Below, one piece after another: positions 8,463 to 59,480 of a stretch of DNA of 64,000 nt. The stretch covers positions 1,081,001 through 1,145,000 of the forward strand of contig NZ_CP030126.1 in assembly GCF_003568845.1 (NCBI RefSeq). Direction: 5' to 3'. Position 1 is the first letter of the stretch. Every line of letters starts with the position of its first letter. The notes beneath the pieces are model-generated. The model worked only from the letters and a program-made list of their open reading frames with translations, searched no databases and was not told the origin of the DNA. The DNA comes from Indioceanicola profundi. GTDB taxonomy: Bacteria > Pseudomonadota > Alphaproteobacteria > Azospirillales > Azospirillaceae. The position numbers were made by a program, and so were the translations under genes.

Positions 8463-9179
8463 ATGGCAGAGATCGCAGACGCACCCCTTGTCCTTATCGT
8501 AGAGGATGAACCGACAACGCGCGCAGCGCTCGTGGGCTATTTCCACGCGGCCGGCTTTCTGGTCGCGGAGGCGGAAAATGGACGGCAGACGCGCGAAGCC
8601 CTTCTCCGCCAGCCACCCGATCTCGTCCTGCTCGATATCGAGTTGCCGGACGAGGATGGATTTTCCATTGCCAAGAGCATCCGGGAAACGTCCAACGTCG
8701 GCATCATCATTGTCACCAATCGGGCTGGCGAGGATGACCGGGTGTTCGGGCTGGAAACAGGCGGCGATGATTACGTGACCAAGCCGCCGAACCCGCGGGA
8801 GTTGCTGGCCCGCGCCCGGAACCTGCTGCGCCGGACGCACCCCAGCAAGATGCGGAGGGCGGAGGGGACGGTCCGGCGTTTCGCCGGATGGACCATGGAT
8901 CTGGCCCGTCGCCGGCTGATCACGCCGGAGGGGCAGGAAATCCGGATCACCCGGGGGGAGTTCGAACTGCTGGCTCTGCTGGTGCGCTCCGGCGGGCGGG
9001 TGGTTACCCGTGATCAGTTGATCGATGCCGTATCCGGAACCGACCGGACGCCCAGCGACCGCACCGTGGACGTGCTGGTCAGCCGCCTGCGGCGGAAGAT
9101 GGGGGATGAGGGGAACGCGCCCAAACTCATCCTGACGGAAAAGGGCATGGGTTACCGCCTGGGGGCGGACATCACCTGA
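8463..9179 (+). CDS. OmpR/TorR-type response regulator
   Basis: A 238-residue two-component regulator. The receiver (residues about 9-120) has the acidic pair in VEDE, phospho-acceptor Asp58 (LVLLDIELPDED) and conserved Lys107 (DDYVTKPPNPREL). The winged-helix DNA-binding domain covers about 140-235 (ITRGEFELLALLV, DRTVDVLVSRLRRKMG). No histidine kinase is encoded nearby, so it is an orphan in this window. It converges on an Hpt protein gene with a 12-bp gap, which hints that both belong to a phosphorelay with a kinase elsewhere. Confidence 0.92.
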   Translation: MAEIADAPLVLIVEDEPTTRAALVGYFHAAGFLVAEAENGRQTREALLRQPPDLVLLDIELPDEDGFSIAKSIRETSNVGIIIVTNRAGEDDRVFGLETGGDDYVTKPPNPRELLARARNLLRRTHPSKMRRAEGTVRRFAGWTMDLARRRLITPEGQEIRITRGEFELLALLVRSGGRVVTRDQLIDAVSGTDRTPSDRTVDVLVSRLRRKMGDEGNAPKLILTEKGMGYRLGADIT

Positions 9180-9191
9180 GACCAGGCGGCG

Positions 9192-9596
9192 TCAGGCCGG
9201 CAGGTCTGCCAGCACGGCCCGCAACGCTCCGAAGGCATCCTCCACGGCGGCCGCGATCCCGGTGGCGGCGGCAATCGCCGCCTCGGCTTCCCCGCCCTTG
9301 GCCAGCCGCTCCACCGACCGGCTGAGTTCCGTCAGGGCGGGCAGACCCAAGGTCACAGCCCCGCTGCCGAGCTTGTGCGACTGCGCGCCCAGCGTCTTCA
9401 GATCGCCATCGCGGGCGGCCTGGACGATCTGGTTCACGGTTTCCGGAACGGTGTCCAGGAACTTGGCGATGATGCCGGCCACGCACTCGCTTCCCAGTAT
9501 CTCCAGATGCTGGTCCAGCACAGACCTGTCCAGGATTTCGGCCGCAGGCGACCCGGTGAGCGCGGACTGCGTCGAGGACGGGCTGCTCATGCTCAT
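9192..9596 (-). CDS. Hpt-domain phosphotransfer protein
   Basis: A 134-residue protein consisting of a single Hpt four-helix bundle. The phosphorylatable residue should be His74 in AQSHKLGSGAVTLG, matching the H-x-K-x-G Hpt signature, with supporting helices around FLDTVPETVNQI and ALTELSRSVERL. Such proteins shuttle phosphoryl groups between a hybrid kinase and a response regulator. The start at 9596 is preferred; upstream in-frame sequence adds residues with no domain character. Partners are not visible apart from the convergent OmpR-type regulator. Confidence 0.85.
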   Translation of the reverse strand: MSMSSPSSTQSALTGSPAAEILDRSVLDQHLEILGSECVAGIIAKFLDTVPETVNQIVQAARDGDLKTLGAQSHKLGSGAVTLGLPALTELSRSVERLAKGGEAEAAIAAATGIAAAVEDAFGALRAVLADLPA

Positions 9597-28590: not shown

Positions 28591-30480
28591 TCAGGCGGGC
28601 GCCTCCGCACCTGCCTGTTCAAACTGCTCCGACAGATCCAGCCACTGCGACTCGACCTCCTCGATTTCCTTTTCCAGTGTTCCGAGCTCGATCTGCAGCC
28701 GGGTGACCTTGTCGGCCGGACCGGAATAAAGCGCGGGATCGGCGAGCTTCGCCGACAGCTCGCCGCGCTTGGCGGTCAGCCTGGCCAGCTTCTTCTCCGC
28801 CTCTTCGATCTTCCGGCGCAGCGGGGCCAACTGTGCGCGCATTTCAGCTGCGGCGCGCCGCTCCTCCTTGCGCTGCTCCTTGGATCTGGCCTCGCCCTTC
28901 GCCTCCCGGTTGGCCGAGCGGGCCCGGTCGAGAAGCAGCTTCTTGTATTCCTCAAGGTCGCCTTCGAACGGCTTGGCGGTGCCATCCGCGACCAGGACCA
29001 GCCGGTCGGCCGTCAGCTCGATCAGGTTGGGATCGTGGCTGATGACGATGACCGCGCCCTCATAGTTGTTCAGCGCCTCAACCAGCGCATCGCGGCTGTC
29101 GATGTCCAGATGGTTGGTCGGCTCATCCAGCATCAGGATATGCGGGGCGTCGCGGGTCATCATGGCGAGAAGCAGCTTTGCCTTCTCGCCGCCCGACAGG
29201 CTGCCGATCTTCGTCTCCGCCTTCTGCTGGCCAAGGCCAAAGCGGCCGAGATGACTGCGGAGCTGGGTTTCGTTCGCCTGCGGCATGATGGTGGCGAGCT
29301 GCTGCACCGGCGTCCAGTCCAGGTTCAGCTCATCCGTCTGGTGCTGTGCGAAGTAGCCGACGCGCAGCTTGCCGGACCGTTTCACCTCGCCCGCCATGGC
29401 CTTCAGCTTGCCGGCCAGCAGCTTCACCAGCGTCGACTTGCCGTTGCCGTTGGCGCCCAGCAGCGCGATGCGATCGTCGGCATCGATGCGCAAGCCCACA
29501 TCCCGCAGCACCGCCTTCTCGCCATAGCCGATGGTGACGCCGTCCAGCGCGATCAGCGGCGGCGCCAGCTCGTCGGGGGAGGGGAAGTCGAAGCTGGTGG
29601 TCTCGTCCTCCAGCACCTGGATGCGGGGCCCCAGCCGCTCGATGGCCTTGATGCGACTCTGCGCCTGCCGGGCCTTGGTGGCCTTGGCGCGGAACCGGTC
29701 CACGAAGCTCTGCAGGTGCTTGCGCTGCATGTCCTGCTTTGCCGCCTGCGCTTTCAGCAGCTCCATCTGCATGGCGCGCGTCTTGGCGAAGGTGTCGTAA
29801 TTGCCGGTGTAGGAGGTGAGCTTCAGCCGGTCCAGATGCACGATGGTGGTCGGCACCTTGTTCAGCAGGTCCTTGTCGTGGCTGACGATGATCACCGTGC
29901 GCGGATAGGCGCGCAGATAATCCTCCAGCCAGAGCGTCGCCTCCAGGTCCAGGTGGTTGGTCGGCTCGTCCAGCAGCAGCAGGTCGGGTTCGGTAAAGAG
30001 CACCGCTGCCAGGGCGACACGCATGCGCCAGCCGCCGGAGAAGTCGCTGCAGGGGCGTTGCTGAGCCTCGGCGTCGAACCCCAGGCCGGACAGGATGCGG
30101 GCGGCCCGGCTTTCCGCCGAATGCGCCTCGATGTCCACCAGACGGGCGTGGATGTCGGCAATGCGGGACGGGTCGGTGGCCGTCTCCGCCTCTGCCAGCA
30201 GGCTTGCCCGTTCCGTGTCCGCGGCCAGCACGGTCTCGATCAGGGAGCGGCTGTCGCTCGGCGCTTCCTGCCGGACCCAACCCATACGGGCGCCGCTGTT
30301 CAGGCGGATGTCGCCGGCATCGGGCTGAAGCTCCCCCGCGATCAGCTTCAGCAGGGTGGACTTGCCGGTACCGTTGCGGCCGACGATGGCGACGCGGTGC
30401 CCGTCAGGGATGGTCACGGTCGCCTGGTCCAGCAGCACGCGCCCGGCCACGCGGTATGTAAGATCGTTGATCAGCAGCAT
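28591..30480 (-). CDS. ABC-F family ATPase
   Basis: A 629-residue protein with two ABC domains and no transmembrane segment. Walker A motifs are GRNGTGKSTLLKL and GANGNGKSTLVKL; signature motifs are FSGGWRMRVALA and LSGGEKAKLLLA; Walker B motifs are LLLLDEPTNHLD and ILMLDEPTNHLD. The P-site tRNA interaction motif lies between domains, and the last 90 residues form a coiled coil (RRKIEEAEKKLARLTAKRGE), as in Uup/YheS-type members acting on ribosomes. The ATG at 30480 (MLLINDL) matches the family start. Divergent from ndk across 225 bp. Confidence 0.92.
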   Translation of the reverse strand: MLLINDLTYRVAGRVLLDQATVTIPDGHRVAIVGRNGTGKSTLLKLIAGELQPDAGDIRLNSGARMGWVRQEAPSDSRSLIETVLAADTERASLLAEAETATDPSRIADIHARLVDIEAHSAESRAARILSGLGFDAEAQQRPCSDFSGGWRMRVALAAVLFTEPDLLLLDEPTNHLDLEATLWLEDYLRAYPRTVIIVSHDKDLLNKVPTTIVHLDRLKLTSYTGNYDTFAKTRAMQMELLKAQAAKQDMQRKHLQSFVDRFRAKATKARQAQSRIKAIERLGPRIQVLEDETTSFDFPSPDELAPPLIALDGVTIGYGEKAVLRDVGLRIDADDRIALLGANGNGKSTLVKLLAGKLKAMAGEVKRSGKLRVGYFAQHQTDELNLDWTPVQQLATIMPQANETQLRSHLGRFGLGQQKAETKIGSLSGGEKAKLLLAMMTRDAPHILMLDEPTNHLDIDSRDALVEALNNYEGAVIVISHDPNLIELTADRLVLVADGTAKPFEGDLEEYKKLLLDRARSANREAKGEARSKEQRKEERRAAAEMRAQLAPLRRKIEEAEKKLARLTAKRGELSAKLADPALYSGPADKVTRLQIELGTLEKEIEEVESQWLDLSEQFEQAGAEAPA

Positions 30481-56482: not shown

Positions 56483-56971
56483 CTATTGGCGCGGCGTCAC
56501 CGTCCCCGGCATGGGACTTCCCAGGACGGCACGGGCCTCCTCCAGCCTTGCGGCGCATTGGGCCTCGTCGCCCTGCTCGGCAGCGGCGAGGGCCGAGCCG
56601 AGAAGCGATTCCGCCTGGTGCGCTACCGCGGTCTGGTCCTGCCCGGTCATACCGCCTCCCGGCACGCTGGAACCGCTGCCCGTCATGGGCGGCGCCGTCG
56701 GCATGGATGGTGTCGCCTCCGGCTCGATCACCGGGGTCTCACCCGTCGAGGGCGGCGCGATCACGCCGCCGGAGCGCTGGAGATCGCCGGCCGAAATCTC
56801 CGGGTCCCGCTCCCCCATGCCGGCGGGCGTCGAAGGGACGATGCCGTAACGCTCCGCCAGATCCGCCACCGCTTCGGGACAGGTGGACGGCGCTGCATGG
56901 CCCGTCGAGGCCAGGAGCGATCCGGCAAGTAGCGGAATGAGTACGCAAAGTACGCCTGCGCGGCTGGCCAT
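56483..56971 (-). CDS. Small exported protein of unknown function
   Basis: A 162-residue exported protein: signal peptide (VLCVLIPLLAGSLLASTGHA), two Cys, a Pro/Gly/Thr-rich middle (PPSTGETPVIEPEATPS) and a C-terminal helix pair (HQAESLLGSALAAAEQGDEA, CAARLEEARAVLG). I do not recognise a family. The ATG at 56971 follows GGAGGAAA; a longer reading frame upstream is antisense-like and rejected. Confidence 0.7.
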   Translation of the reverse strand: MASRAGVLCVLIPLLAGSLLASTGHAAPSTCPEAVADLAERYGIVPSTPAGMGERDPEISAGDLQRSGGVIAPPSTGETPVIEPEATPSMPTAPPMTGSGSSVPGGGMTGQDQTAVAHQAESLLGSALAAAEQGDEAQCAARLEEARAVLGSPMPGTVTPRQ

Positions 56972-57015: not shown

Positions 57016-58560
57016 TCACGAGGTTCCATCGGCCTCGCAGAACTGCCGGAATGCCATGGTCAGGCTGGTCCGGATGGTCTTGGAGAGCACTTCCTGCGGC
57101 GGGCCGGTGAAGCGATGCTCCTCCACGATCGGTTCCTGTCCGCGCCGGGCCACGGCGATGTAGACCAGCCCCTGAGGCTTGCCGCAGTCGGGGCCGGGCC
57201 CGGCAACGCCGGTCACGGCGATGGCAATTGTGGCCGGGCCGGTGCGTTCCAGAGCGCCCGTCGCCATGCTGATGGCGACCTCCGGATGATAAGGCGTCTT
57301 CTCCTTCAGCAGTTCCGCGGGAACGCCGAGAGCGGCCGTCTTCATGTCCATGCGGTAGGTGGCATAACCGCCGGCGAACACGTCCGATGCGCCGGAGCAA
57401 GCGGCAAGACTGGCGCCAATCAGGCCGGCGGTGCAGGATTCCGCCGTCACCAGCTTGTCCCCGCGTCTCTGAAGGGCGGTGACCAGACGCTGGGCCATAT
57501 GATGCAGGTCGGCCGGGAAACCCACCGGCTGTTCATTCTGGCGCAGCACCGCCGGGCGGAACAGACGCACATCCAGCGCATCCAGCGGGCCAAATCGATC
57601 GCCCTTGGGATGGTCCAGCCGGACAGGGCTCAGCCGTTTGAACCAAGTACGCCCCAGCCGCTTCAGCGCGGTTTGCAGCACACCGGCGGCATGGTCGTCC
57701 CCCTTGAACCCAAGCAAGTCCGGCAGTTCTTCGGGTCCGGCTCCCGGATTCTCGAACACGGCCTGGAGGATGGCGAAGACCATCAAGTCCCATTCCAGAT
57801 AGCTGGAGCCGATCTGCGCCTCATCCCCGCCGCCGGTAATGCCCAGACCGTCGGTGGGCATGGCGCGCCAGGTCCGCTCCGGCACGCCCACGGCGCGGGC
57901 CATCCACGGCACCTCCCAGCTCTTCAGCAGGGACTGCACGGGAGCGAGGTCGCCGACGTCGCCATGAAGGGTCCAGAAGCCGGCGGCGAGTTCCGAAAGG
58001 TTGTCGGTGCTGACGACCAGCCCGCCATAGCGGTGCGCCTGATCGTACAGGGTGACCATGCGCAGGCGTGCGCGGATGTTGCCCCGGCGGATGCGTACGC
58101 CCTCGTCATCTCCCGAGGTCATGCGTTCATCCAGCCCGCCCAGCGCCGTGACCATGGCGCGGTATTGGTCCGTCAGGTCCAGATGCCTGTGTTCGATGTC
58201 CAGGGCGCTGCAGGCCTCGACCCCGCGCTCCGTCTCCTCCGGGTTCTGGTCGATGGGGAGGGTGTGGCCGACCACCCGCCAGCCGGCCCGTTTCAGCAGC
58301 GCCGCCGTCAGCGCGCTGTCCACGCCGCCGGACATTCCCAGCACGGCGGTCGATGCGCCAGTCTGATCCCGGTACGCTGCCAGATCGGCGGTCAACTTGT
58401 CGGTGACCTGCTCCAGTGCCTCTCCATCCAGATACAGCCCACGCTCGATCTGCCGGTCCAGCTCGGCCATGAACCAAGGGGAGAGGGGGGCCAGCCGGGC
58501 TTGGCGGCTGAGGTCCAGGATTTCCTCGCGAAGGTTCGTCATGGTTTTCTTGCCCGTCAT
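57016..58560 (-). CDS. nadE: NAD synthase fused to a CinA-C/PncC amidohydrolase
   Basis: A 514-residue two-domain protein. Residues about 7-345 are an ammonia-type NadE that converts nicotinate adenine dinucleotide to NAD with ATP: PP-loop S77GGVDS82 (VLGMSGGVDSALTAALLKRA) plus RIRRGNIRARLRM, LVVSTDNLSELAAGFWTLHG and the aspartate/Gly-rich GDVGDLAPVQSLLK. Residues about 355-514 are a CinA C-terminal (PncC) domain that hydrolyses nicotinamide mononucleotide to nicotinate mononucleotide: Ser375 in AESCTAGLIGASLAACSGAS, then YATYRMDMKTAALGV and IAVTGVAGPGPD. No glutaminase domain precedes NadE. The ATG at 58560 has GGGAAG 6 bp upstream. Confidence 0.92.
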   Translation of the reverse strand: MTGKKTMTNLREEILDLSRQARLAPLSPWFMAELDRQIERGLYLDGEALEQVTDKLTADLAAYRDQTGASTAVLGMSGGVDSALTAALLKRAGWRVVGHTLPIDQNPEETERGVEACSALDIEHRHLDLTDQYRAMVTALGGLDERMTSGDDEGVRIRRGNIRARLRMVTLYDQAHRYGGLVVSTDNLSELAAGFWTLHGDVGDLAPVQSLLKSWEVPWMARAVGVPERTWRAMPTDGLGITGGGDEAQIGSSYLEWDLMVFAILQAVFENPGAGPEELPDLLGFKGDDHAAGVLQTALKRLGRTWFKRLSPVRLDHPKGDRFGPLDALDVRLFRPAVLRQNEQPVGFPADLHHMAQRLVTALQRRGDKLVTAESCTAGLIGASLAACSGASDVFAGGYATYRMDMKTAALGVPAELLKEKTPYHPEVAISMATGALERTGPATIAIAVTGVAGPGPDCGKPQGLVYIAVARRGQEPIVEEHRFTGPPQEVLSKTIRTSLTMAFRQFCEADGTS

Positions 58561-58619
58561 CGCATTCTTCCCACCACAACGGACCGGAATGGGAAAACGG
58601 CACGGCGGGCGCTGCTGCC

Positions 58620-59480
58620 CTAACGCTCCACCGCCGTCTGCTCCAGACCGGCGAAGAAGGACATGATGGCGGGGCCGGCGGCATCGGGCCAGTTGTGGGG
58701 GTAGAACCGGCCTCCATAGGCATGGTCCTGCCCGTGCGGGCACCATAGGACAGGCATAGGCGTGTCGGGCGGGCCGAGCTGGCGGCAATTCATGCCGTAA
58801 TCCGGGGCCGGGCGGGCGGATTTCGGTTCGAGGCCGTTCTGGGCCAGGAAGCTGGACAGGGCGCGCCGCCCCTCGCTGACCGGCACCAACTCATCCTTCG
58901 GATTGTGGATGACCATGGCCGCCACCTCGCCGGCGCAGGCGGTGGGCTGGATGCCGCCGCCGACCACGGCAACGCCGCGGATGCGGTCACCGCGCACGCA
59001 GGCCAGCGTGGCGGCGAAGGACGCCCCCAGCGAATGGCCGGTGACGAAGACACGGTCGGAATCGATGCAGTAGGTCCGCCCAACCTCGTCCAGCAGGCGG
59101 TCGAAGAGGGCGATGTCACGCAGGTTGCCAGCGCTGTCGCCGGGATCGGACCAGGAGAAAGTGCCATCCGCCTGCGTCAGCGCCTGGGGATAAATGAACA
59201 GCGTCGGCTCCTTCGCCGCCTCTTCCAGGTCGTAATAGCGCCGTACCTGCTCGGCCGCATTGGTGCGGCCATGAAAGGCGAAGACAACCTTCCGCCGCTC
59301 GCCCTCCGCCGGGGTTCCGCCCGCGGCCGCCAGGATAGCTTCCCGCTCCACGCCGTCCAACATGGTGCGGATCACGGTTCCCTCCTCTGGCGGTACCGCG
59401 GTCGGGCATGGTGGGGCCCGTGCCGCCGCAGGAAGCGCAAGCAGCAGAAGGAGAAGCATCGCGACTGCCCGGATGGTCAT
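58620..59480 (-). CDS. Exported PHB-depolymerase-type esterase
   Basis: A 286-residue exported alpha/beta-hydrolase of the LpqC/PHB-depolymerase esterase type. Signal peptide MTIRAVAMLLLLLLALPAAA, oxyanion strand VVFAFHGRTNAAEQVRR, nucleophile elbow GHSLGASFAATLAC (Ser in GHSLG), and later NPKDELVPVSEG and CPHGQDHAYGG with the probable Asp and His. The true substrate may be an acylated polysaccharide or other ester. Divergent from the MDR gene across 226 bp. Confidence 0.85.
   Translation of the reverse strand: MTIRAVAMLLLLLLALPAAARAPPCPTAVPPEEGTVIRTMLDGVEREAILAAAGGTPAEGERRKVVFAFHGRTNAAEQVRRYYDLEEAAKEPTLFIYPQALTQADGTFSWSDPGDSAGNLRDIALFDRLLDEVGRTYCIDSDRVFVTGHSLGASFAATLACVRGDRIRGVAVVGGGIQPTACAGEVAAMVIHNPKDELVPVSEGRRALSSFLAQNGLEPKSARPAPDYGMNCRQLGPPDTPMPVLWCPHGQDHAYGGRFYPHNWPDAAGPAIMSFFAGLEQTAVER

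Follow-up and report, generated by a model that had tools for sequence, protein, structure and literature searches.

The window (the whole 64,000-nucleotide stretch of Indioceanicola profundi DNA that was analysed) contains on its minus strand a gene at 57016–58560, comprising 514 codons plus a stop with the ATG at 58560, which encodes a NadE domain followed by a CinA/PncC domain. The fusion is a real and inherited joint of two families on a single chain, and at least six more full-length fusions are encoded in other genomes. It joins two families of NAD metabolism in a conserved manner, and its amidase half departs from the residue pattern that holds for NMN deamidases.

Architecture and validity of the fusion

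The NadE half (residues 1–334, 57559–58560) matches the NAD_synthase family PF02540 over residues 55–260 with E=5.2e-36 and 124.4 bits against a Pfam cut-off of 21. It carries the PP-loop SGGVDS (residues 77–82, 58315–58332), identified by motif and by residue alignment, and a C-terminal KR motif at residues 308–309. The CinA/PncC half (residues 351–514, 57019–57510) matches PF02464 over residues 354–504 (E=6.1e-39, 133.6 bits, cut-off 23.5). At the level of NCBIfam models the protein reaches 120 bits with TIGR00552 nadE (cut-off 63.65) and 95.5 bits with TIGR00199 PncC_domain (cut-off 68.9), so that both domains lie above the cut-offs of both collections within one ORF, as the first-pass annotation of this DNA had proposed. 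The placement and strand of its ORF, the length of 514 aa and the motifs it had read, SGGVDS at residues 77–82, LVVSTDNLSELAAGFW and AESCTAG with Ser375, were all re-found. An AlphaFold model based on a six-row alignment (mean pLDDT 78.4, pTM 0.64) consists of two folded halves connected by a low-confidence linker (residues 335–350, 57511–57558). Immediately 5' of the ATG lies a Shine-Dalgarno-like GGGAAGA (58566–58572), read by eye.

An assembly or sequencing error joining two adjacent genes is excluded as the origin of the fusion because six more genomes encode the same two-domain ORF, which brings the genomes with full-length fusions to seven. A pseudogene is likewise ruled out by the open reading frame, the coding GC3 of its two halves (0.82 and 0.81), the catalytic residues and the comparison of substitution rates: across the 15 pairs that do not involve genome G449, dN between fusions is 0.17–0.30 in the NadE half and 0.20–0.47 in the PncC half, as opposed to a dS of 0.66–2.83 which is near saturation. 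The protein matched 0 families in PADLOC, and a defence protein listed there was rejected.

Distribution of the fusion and of its separate halves

By 16S the window genome lies nearest to Azospirillum among the twelve best-covered plasmid records (92–94% over 65–66% of the query), with one further record in the 95–99% band outside these twelve, which suggests an Azospirillum-like alphaproteobacterium. At least seven full-length fusions are present in seven alphaproteobacterial genomes, and the other six are 51–68% identical to the window protein by tblastn. Four of the seven belong to the family of the window genome (the window genome itself, G000, along with G003, G430 and G449) and thus to 4 of the 82 genomes of its order; two come from another order, in which both genomes sampled, G128 and G237, encode a full-length fusion; and the seventh (L042) is found in a Paracoccaceae MAG, G821. 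A class-wide sample gave a full-length match in 3 of 385 genomes (G000, G128 and G237) with three more detected by the CinA domain alone, and a phylum-wide sample gave one in 398, G000 itself, the best three candidates being scored in most genomes of both samples. The contig scan kept the best 80 of 363 relatives, one fusion included, and since the widespread motif GMSGGVDS dominated its matches the named occurrences are a lower bound. This patchy occurrence suggests horizontal transfer or repeated loss. A plasmid- or phage-borne fusion was rejected for the collections searched: none of the 407 plasmid records and none of the 38 phage records with a match covers 80% of the protein at a single place, and no relative was confirmed in viral contigs, where records close to the window's own genome may be missing.

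The two halves also occur apart. The NadE half alone is encoded on two Rhodobacterales plasmids, CP081101.1 and NZ_CP123585.1 (53.5 and 55.1% identical to the window protein), where the genes end at a stop before the PncC half. There is no CinA match on either plasmid and no detectable PncC remnant beside these genes, the best hit (E 0.25) lying elsewhere in the loci. The genes annotated as nadE on plasmids at L040:9049-9969 and L041:9019-9969 are members of the NadE subfamily of the fusion, and their homology starts upstream of the annotated starts, which may have been called too late.

Genome G443 encodes a PncC half without a NadE half (L127:8518-9102, minus strand). This PncC half nests within the fusion clade next to that of G003 (support 87/89), which makes a loss of the NadE half likely; its gene is located near a histidine-kinase-like gene, the family of which was named by reading. 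The fusion in G449 (L126:8026-9657, plus strand) is an open, coding-like frame with a GC3 of 0.92 in both halves. In its NadE half SGRAGS replaces SGGVDS, Lys213, the PTDGLG stretch and GDEAQIG are gone, and evolution is faster, with a dN of 0.44–0.51 versus 0.17–0.30 among intact members, while its PncC half is intact. Because the catalytic motifs are lost in an open frame, the PncC half of G449 persists without a working NadE half.

The NadE half

The NadE half shares with ammonia-dependent NAD synthetases (NadE, TIGR00552) the fold, SGGxDS, the catalytic set and the KR motif near the C-terminus. SGGVDS, Asn161, Arg165, Arg167, Glu190, Asp201, Lys213, Asp246-Glu247 and Lys308-Arg309 are kept in eight of the nine members of the subfamily, the window protein among them, and so are the positions that we take to be the PP-loop, Mg-binding Glu, GD, Lys, PT/PS, DE and KR; the ninth is G449, which has lost most of these positions, and the set is intact in six of the seven fusions. 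Unlike E. coli NadE, the fusion has about 30 extra N-terminal residues, a C-terminal amidase, an inserted Trp215 and the motif TLHGDVG (TINGDVG in the plasmid forms) in place of TKYGDGG, and it falls into a separate clade. Fused and plasmid NadEs together form this clade (100/100) on a long branch, apart from the glutamine-type enzymes, including that of the host itself, and from the E. coli type. The fused NadE halves by themselves receive no firm support as a clade (68/17 if G449 is included, 82/39 without it), and a cyanophage neighbour in this tree that rests on long branches is not relied on. L079, presumably an MnmA-like protein, was dropped from the NadE set.

Within the NadE family the NadE half is closest in sequence to the Francisella NMN synthetase 3fiu with 77.6 bits, followed by 4xfd with 69.8, a small margin of about 8 bits. 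By structure, for which the model halves were also matched with Foldseek, 3fiu (Z 25.4, 236 aligned, 2.4 Å) is tied with 1xng (Z 26.0, 257 aligned, 3.2 Å) and 2e18 (Z 25.2, 249 aligned, 4.1 Å). The top sequence match is at most a hint at NaMN as the substrate.

The Pfam scan at E <= 1 found no nitrilase-like glutaminase domain in the fusion, in contrast to glutamine-dependent (type F) NadE, and since this domain is missing ammonia rather than glutamine is the probable donor of the NadE half. The ammonia might conceivably come from within the chain, if the PncC half cut an amide and handed the ammonia to the NadE half, thus replacing the glutaminase of type F enzymes. The missing glutaminase domain favours such a role, and so does the combination of a synthetase with an amidohydrolase, which resembles the type F architecture as presented in the accessible text of PMC3376133, in which CinA has 0 occurrences. 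It is nevertheless very unlikely, and ranks fourth among the explanations considered, given that in G449 the PncC half is retained beside a NadE half without a PP-loop, that in G443 it stands alone, and that the plasmid NadEs have no detectable PncC remnant.

The PncC half

The C-terminal half superimposes onto the A. tumefaciens CinA structure 2a9s with Z 28.4 over 164 aligned residues at 1.5 Å. Its residues were compared between eight sequences of the clade (the seven fusions and G443) and 26 ordinary PncCs, which comprise those of E. coli and of the window genome and 24 of 26 loci chosen by AESC[TS][AGS]G, all members other than E. coli being from the same class. The two loci dropped, L018 (AESFTGG) and L033 (VESCTGG), have kept GAVS and the arginines. 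With the characterised CinA-domain NMN deamidases (E. coli PncC/YgaD, A. tumefaciens 2A9S and T. thermophilus CinA) the fused half has in common the fold, the Ser/Lys dyad and the equivalents of Tyr58 and Thr105-Gly106. The equivalents of S31, Y58, K63, T105 and G106 are kept in all eight clade members, among them Ser375 (57436–57438), which corresponds to the nucleophile S31/S29, and Lys407 (57340–57342), which corresponds to the general base K63/K61. Ser31, Lys63, Tyr58 and Thr105 also have equivalents in 26/26 ordinary PncCs, position 105 being T in 25 and S in E. coli. The catalytic residues of both families are hence present in the fusion, and those of PncC survive alignment.

The substrate site, on the other hand, differs from that of the ordinary enzymes at several positions. 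Pro488 (57097–57099) replaces the phosphate-binding Arg (R145 in A. tumefaciens, R142 in E. coli), a position at which Pro is found in 8/8 of the clade and Arg in 26/26 ordinary PncCs, and the second Arg of block P-VIII has become Leu or Ile in all eight as opposed to Arg in all 26. Thr422-Pro-Tyr-His425 (57286–57297) takes the place of GAVS in block P-IV, the clade having TPY[HD] throughout (8/8) whereas the ordinary enzymes have G, A and V in 26/26 and S in 24/26. The Asn of YxNxxK (Asn60) is kept in none of the eight but in 25 of the 26, the first G of GG in AESCTGG is lost in every clade member, and AGPxGG is one residue shorter. The equivalent of the phosphate-contact residue Ser48 is still Ser in six of the eight, and its partner Gly46 still Gly in five. 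The 'complete PncC domain' of the first-pass annotation therefore stands as far as catalytic residues are concerned and falls short at the substrate site. Judged by these residues, the amide-cutting core is present, and a part which characterised enzymes need for holding NMN is absent.

The importance of the arginine is documented for several enzymes, as far as the accessible parts of the respective papers go. The A. tumefaciens R145A variant has no detectable activity and its Tm is lowered by 31 degrees, which the authors blame on a destabilised structure; the same paper equates R145 with E. coli R142 (PMC5384747). The E. coli R142A variant has lost both activity and NMN binding (PMC8231969), and in T. 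thermophilus CinA Arg-377 forms a salt bridge with the phosphate of the ligand (PMC4246079). The fused proteins evolved with Pro at this site, and as the loss in R145A was attributed to stability, compensation is possible: other residues may make up for the arginine and NMN deamidation may persist, which argues against a changed specificity, as do the Ser48 and Gly46 equivalents still present in part of the clade.

The replacements could also mean that the PncC half is inactive altogether, since both arginines are likewise missing from E. coli YdeJ, a CinA paralogue reported to be inactive on NMN. According to the accessible text of PMC3855486, which lists the CinA blocks, inactive lineages including that of YdeJ do not conserve the phosphate Arg, and the fused half shares with YdeJ the replacement of both P-VIII arginines and of the YxNxxK Asn. 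The PncC half would then be a pseudo-enzyme serving dimerisation or regulation of the NadE half. This is improbable and ranks third, because Ser, Tyr, Lys and Thr are all kept throughout the clade whereas YdeJ (L177:6774-7292), which in the alignment has Cys and Leu at the two P-VIII Arg positions, has Phe for the Tyr, and because G449 and G443 have kept a PncC half although neither has a functional NadE half joined to it. TPY[HD]P is kept in all eight clade sequences at pairwise identities of 51–77%, which would argue against decay and for constraint or a new specificity.

The PncC halves group together as a single clade (99/100), in a tree for which the bootstrap had not settled and in which YdeJ and L159 are very long branches. 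Genome G009 encodes a stand-alone PncC (L008) that is 50% identical to the fused half; it has lost the Asn, reads GAVD, has a shortened AGP loop and keeps the arginines. L008 is possibly a sister of the pre-fusion amidase by these features, its place in the tree being unsettled.

Other NAD genes and the genomic neighbourhood

A separate CinA-domain protein that outscores the fused one is encoded in all eight genomes with a fusion or a PncC half. The separate PncCs (that of the window genome and L152-L158) keep GAVS and the phosphate-binding Arg in 8/8, and the Asn is present in six of the seven L152-L158 proteins. In G128 and G237 there are two additional CinA matches apiece, among them the very divergent L159. 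By PF02540 score seven of these eight genomes also encode another NadE-like protein. The exception is G821, a MAG of 2.8 Mb with no completeness given, in which the fusion alone matches PF02540 strongly, the other two matches being weak (1.4e-6 and 1.5e-4). Extra PF02540 matches occur in G443 and G430, and contig C77 of G449 has NadE-like matches at 8883-9401 and 29510-30364 (frames of 687 and 341 aa) about 20 kb apart.

The window genome, where a search for separate pncC/cinA and nadE genes found both, has a glutamine-type NadE that scores 824 bits with PRK13981 (cut-off 479) as well as a NadD (276 bits, cut-off 240). PF01467 matches in three places of this genome, two of which are CoaD and NadD according to NCBIfam and the third of which we take to be HldE. 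NAPRTase has 0 matches in the window genome and is present in three of the eight genomes with a fusion or a PncC half. In Azospirillum brasilense the NadE2 of the glutamine type is under PII control and subject to inhibition by NAD, as described in the accessible text of PMC7196632; nitrogen control of NAD synthesis is thus known in the group, and none of the present findings ties the fusion to PII.

The first-pass annotation had read the fusion as a single chain that carries the opening and the closing step of an NMN recycling route. The PncC half would convert NMN to NaMN, an external NadD would form NaAD, and the NadE half would complete NAD. Both domains exceed their family cut-offs, the Ser/Lys dyad, Tyr and Thr are kept in 8/8, NadD is encoded in the genome, and PncC is known in fusion with another NAD-recycling domain, COG1058 (PMC3680494, accessible text), all of which is in line with such a route. 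The proposal is nonetheless supported in part: a true fusion with the catalytic residues of both families stands, the joining of these two steps is not supported, and the recycling role, although ranked second, is considered unlikely. The arginine needed in two characterised enzymes is Pro in every clade member, the fusion lacks NadD, all three activities are already encoded elsewhere in the window genome, and the halves also occur apart, which weakens the need for coupling; in G449 the NadE half has decayed beside an intact PncC half.

The gene is located between two genes on the same strand with gaps of 59 and 44 bases, which makes local co-transcription possible. The upstream neighbour (58620-59480, minus strand) is by reading esterase/depolymerase-like, and the downstream one (56483-56971, minus strand) a small protein with a signal-like start. 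A conserved operon was rejected since no neighbour recurs across the fusion loci (ORFs of at least 110 aa at ten loci). That comparison left out the pair L040/L041, whose neighbourhoods match each other, and yielded just scattered neighbour pairs at 27–39% identity, which we take to be regulator-, kinase-, dehydrogenase- and membrane-protein-like.

Relation to described fusions

The two-domain CinA proteins (COG1058/MocF-CinA) are comparable in that their CinA domain is likewise the C-terminal half of a NAD-metabolism protein, whereas the N-terminal partner in the fusion is a NAD-synthase domain (NadE) and not an ADP-ribose pyrophosphatase. Occasional fusions of CinA with other domains are mentioned in the accessible text of PMC3855486, which did not analyse them. 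A NadE-PncC/CinA fusion, which the first-pass annotation did not recall as a described enzyme, was not found described in the open-access library that was searched.

Possible function

The favoured reading, put at somewhat under even odds, is that the fusion is an accessory two-activity enzyme that combines a synthetase of the ammonia type with an amidohydrolase whose specificity has changed, and that it would operate alongside the ordinary PncC, NadD and NadE. The NadE half would adenylate a nicotinate carboxylate with ATP and amidate it with free ammonia, its substrate probably being NaAD or NaMN. The PncC half would be a working Ser/Lys amidohydrolase with a pocket that no longer binds the phosphate of NMN in the known way, and it may have moved to another amide, perhaps that of a nicotinamide compound which is larger or carries no phosphate. 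On this view the halves would work in opposite directions, one making and the other cutting an amide, and would not be the start and end of a single route.

A related but very doubtful idea is that both activities act on nicotinamide nucleotides, so that the chain would amidate them with ATP and NH3 and deamidate them again. With the phosphate-binding Arg and GAVS gone, the amidase pocket would in that case have opened for a dinucleotide such as NAD in place of NMN, and if this were true the ratio of NAD to NaAD would be set by ammonia and ATP, like opposing pairs in other bifunctional regulators.

Implications

Under the favoured reading the fused amidase, if active, would add a new substrate to those of the CinA-family amidohydrolases, and the purpose of pairing an amide-making with an amide-cutting domain would be directly testable. 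G449 offers a naturally occurring case in which to ask whether the PncC half is functional by itself. If G821 is truly without another NadE, the fused NadE alone may sustain NAD synthesis in this organism. For the family as a whole, the label 'nicotinamide-nucleotide amidohydrolase', whose model is passed by the fused domain, need not mean NMN deamidation.
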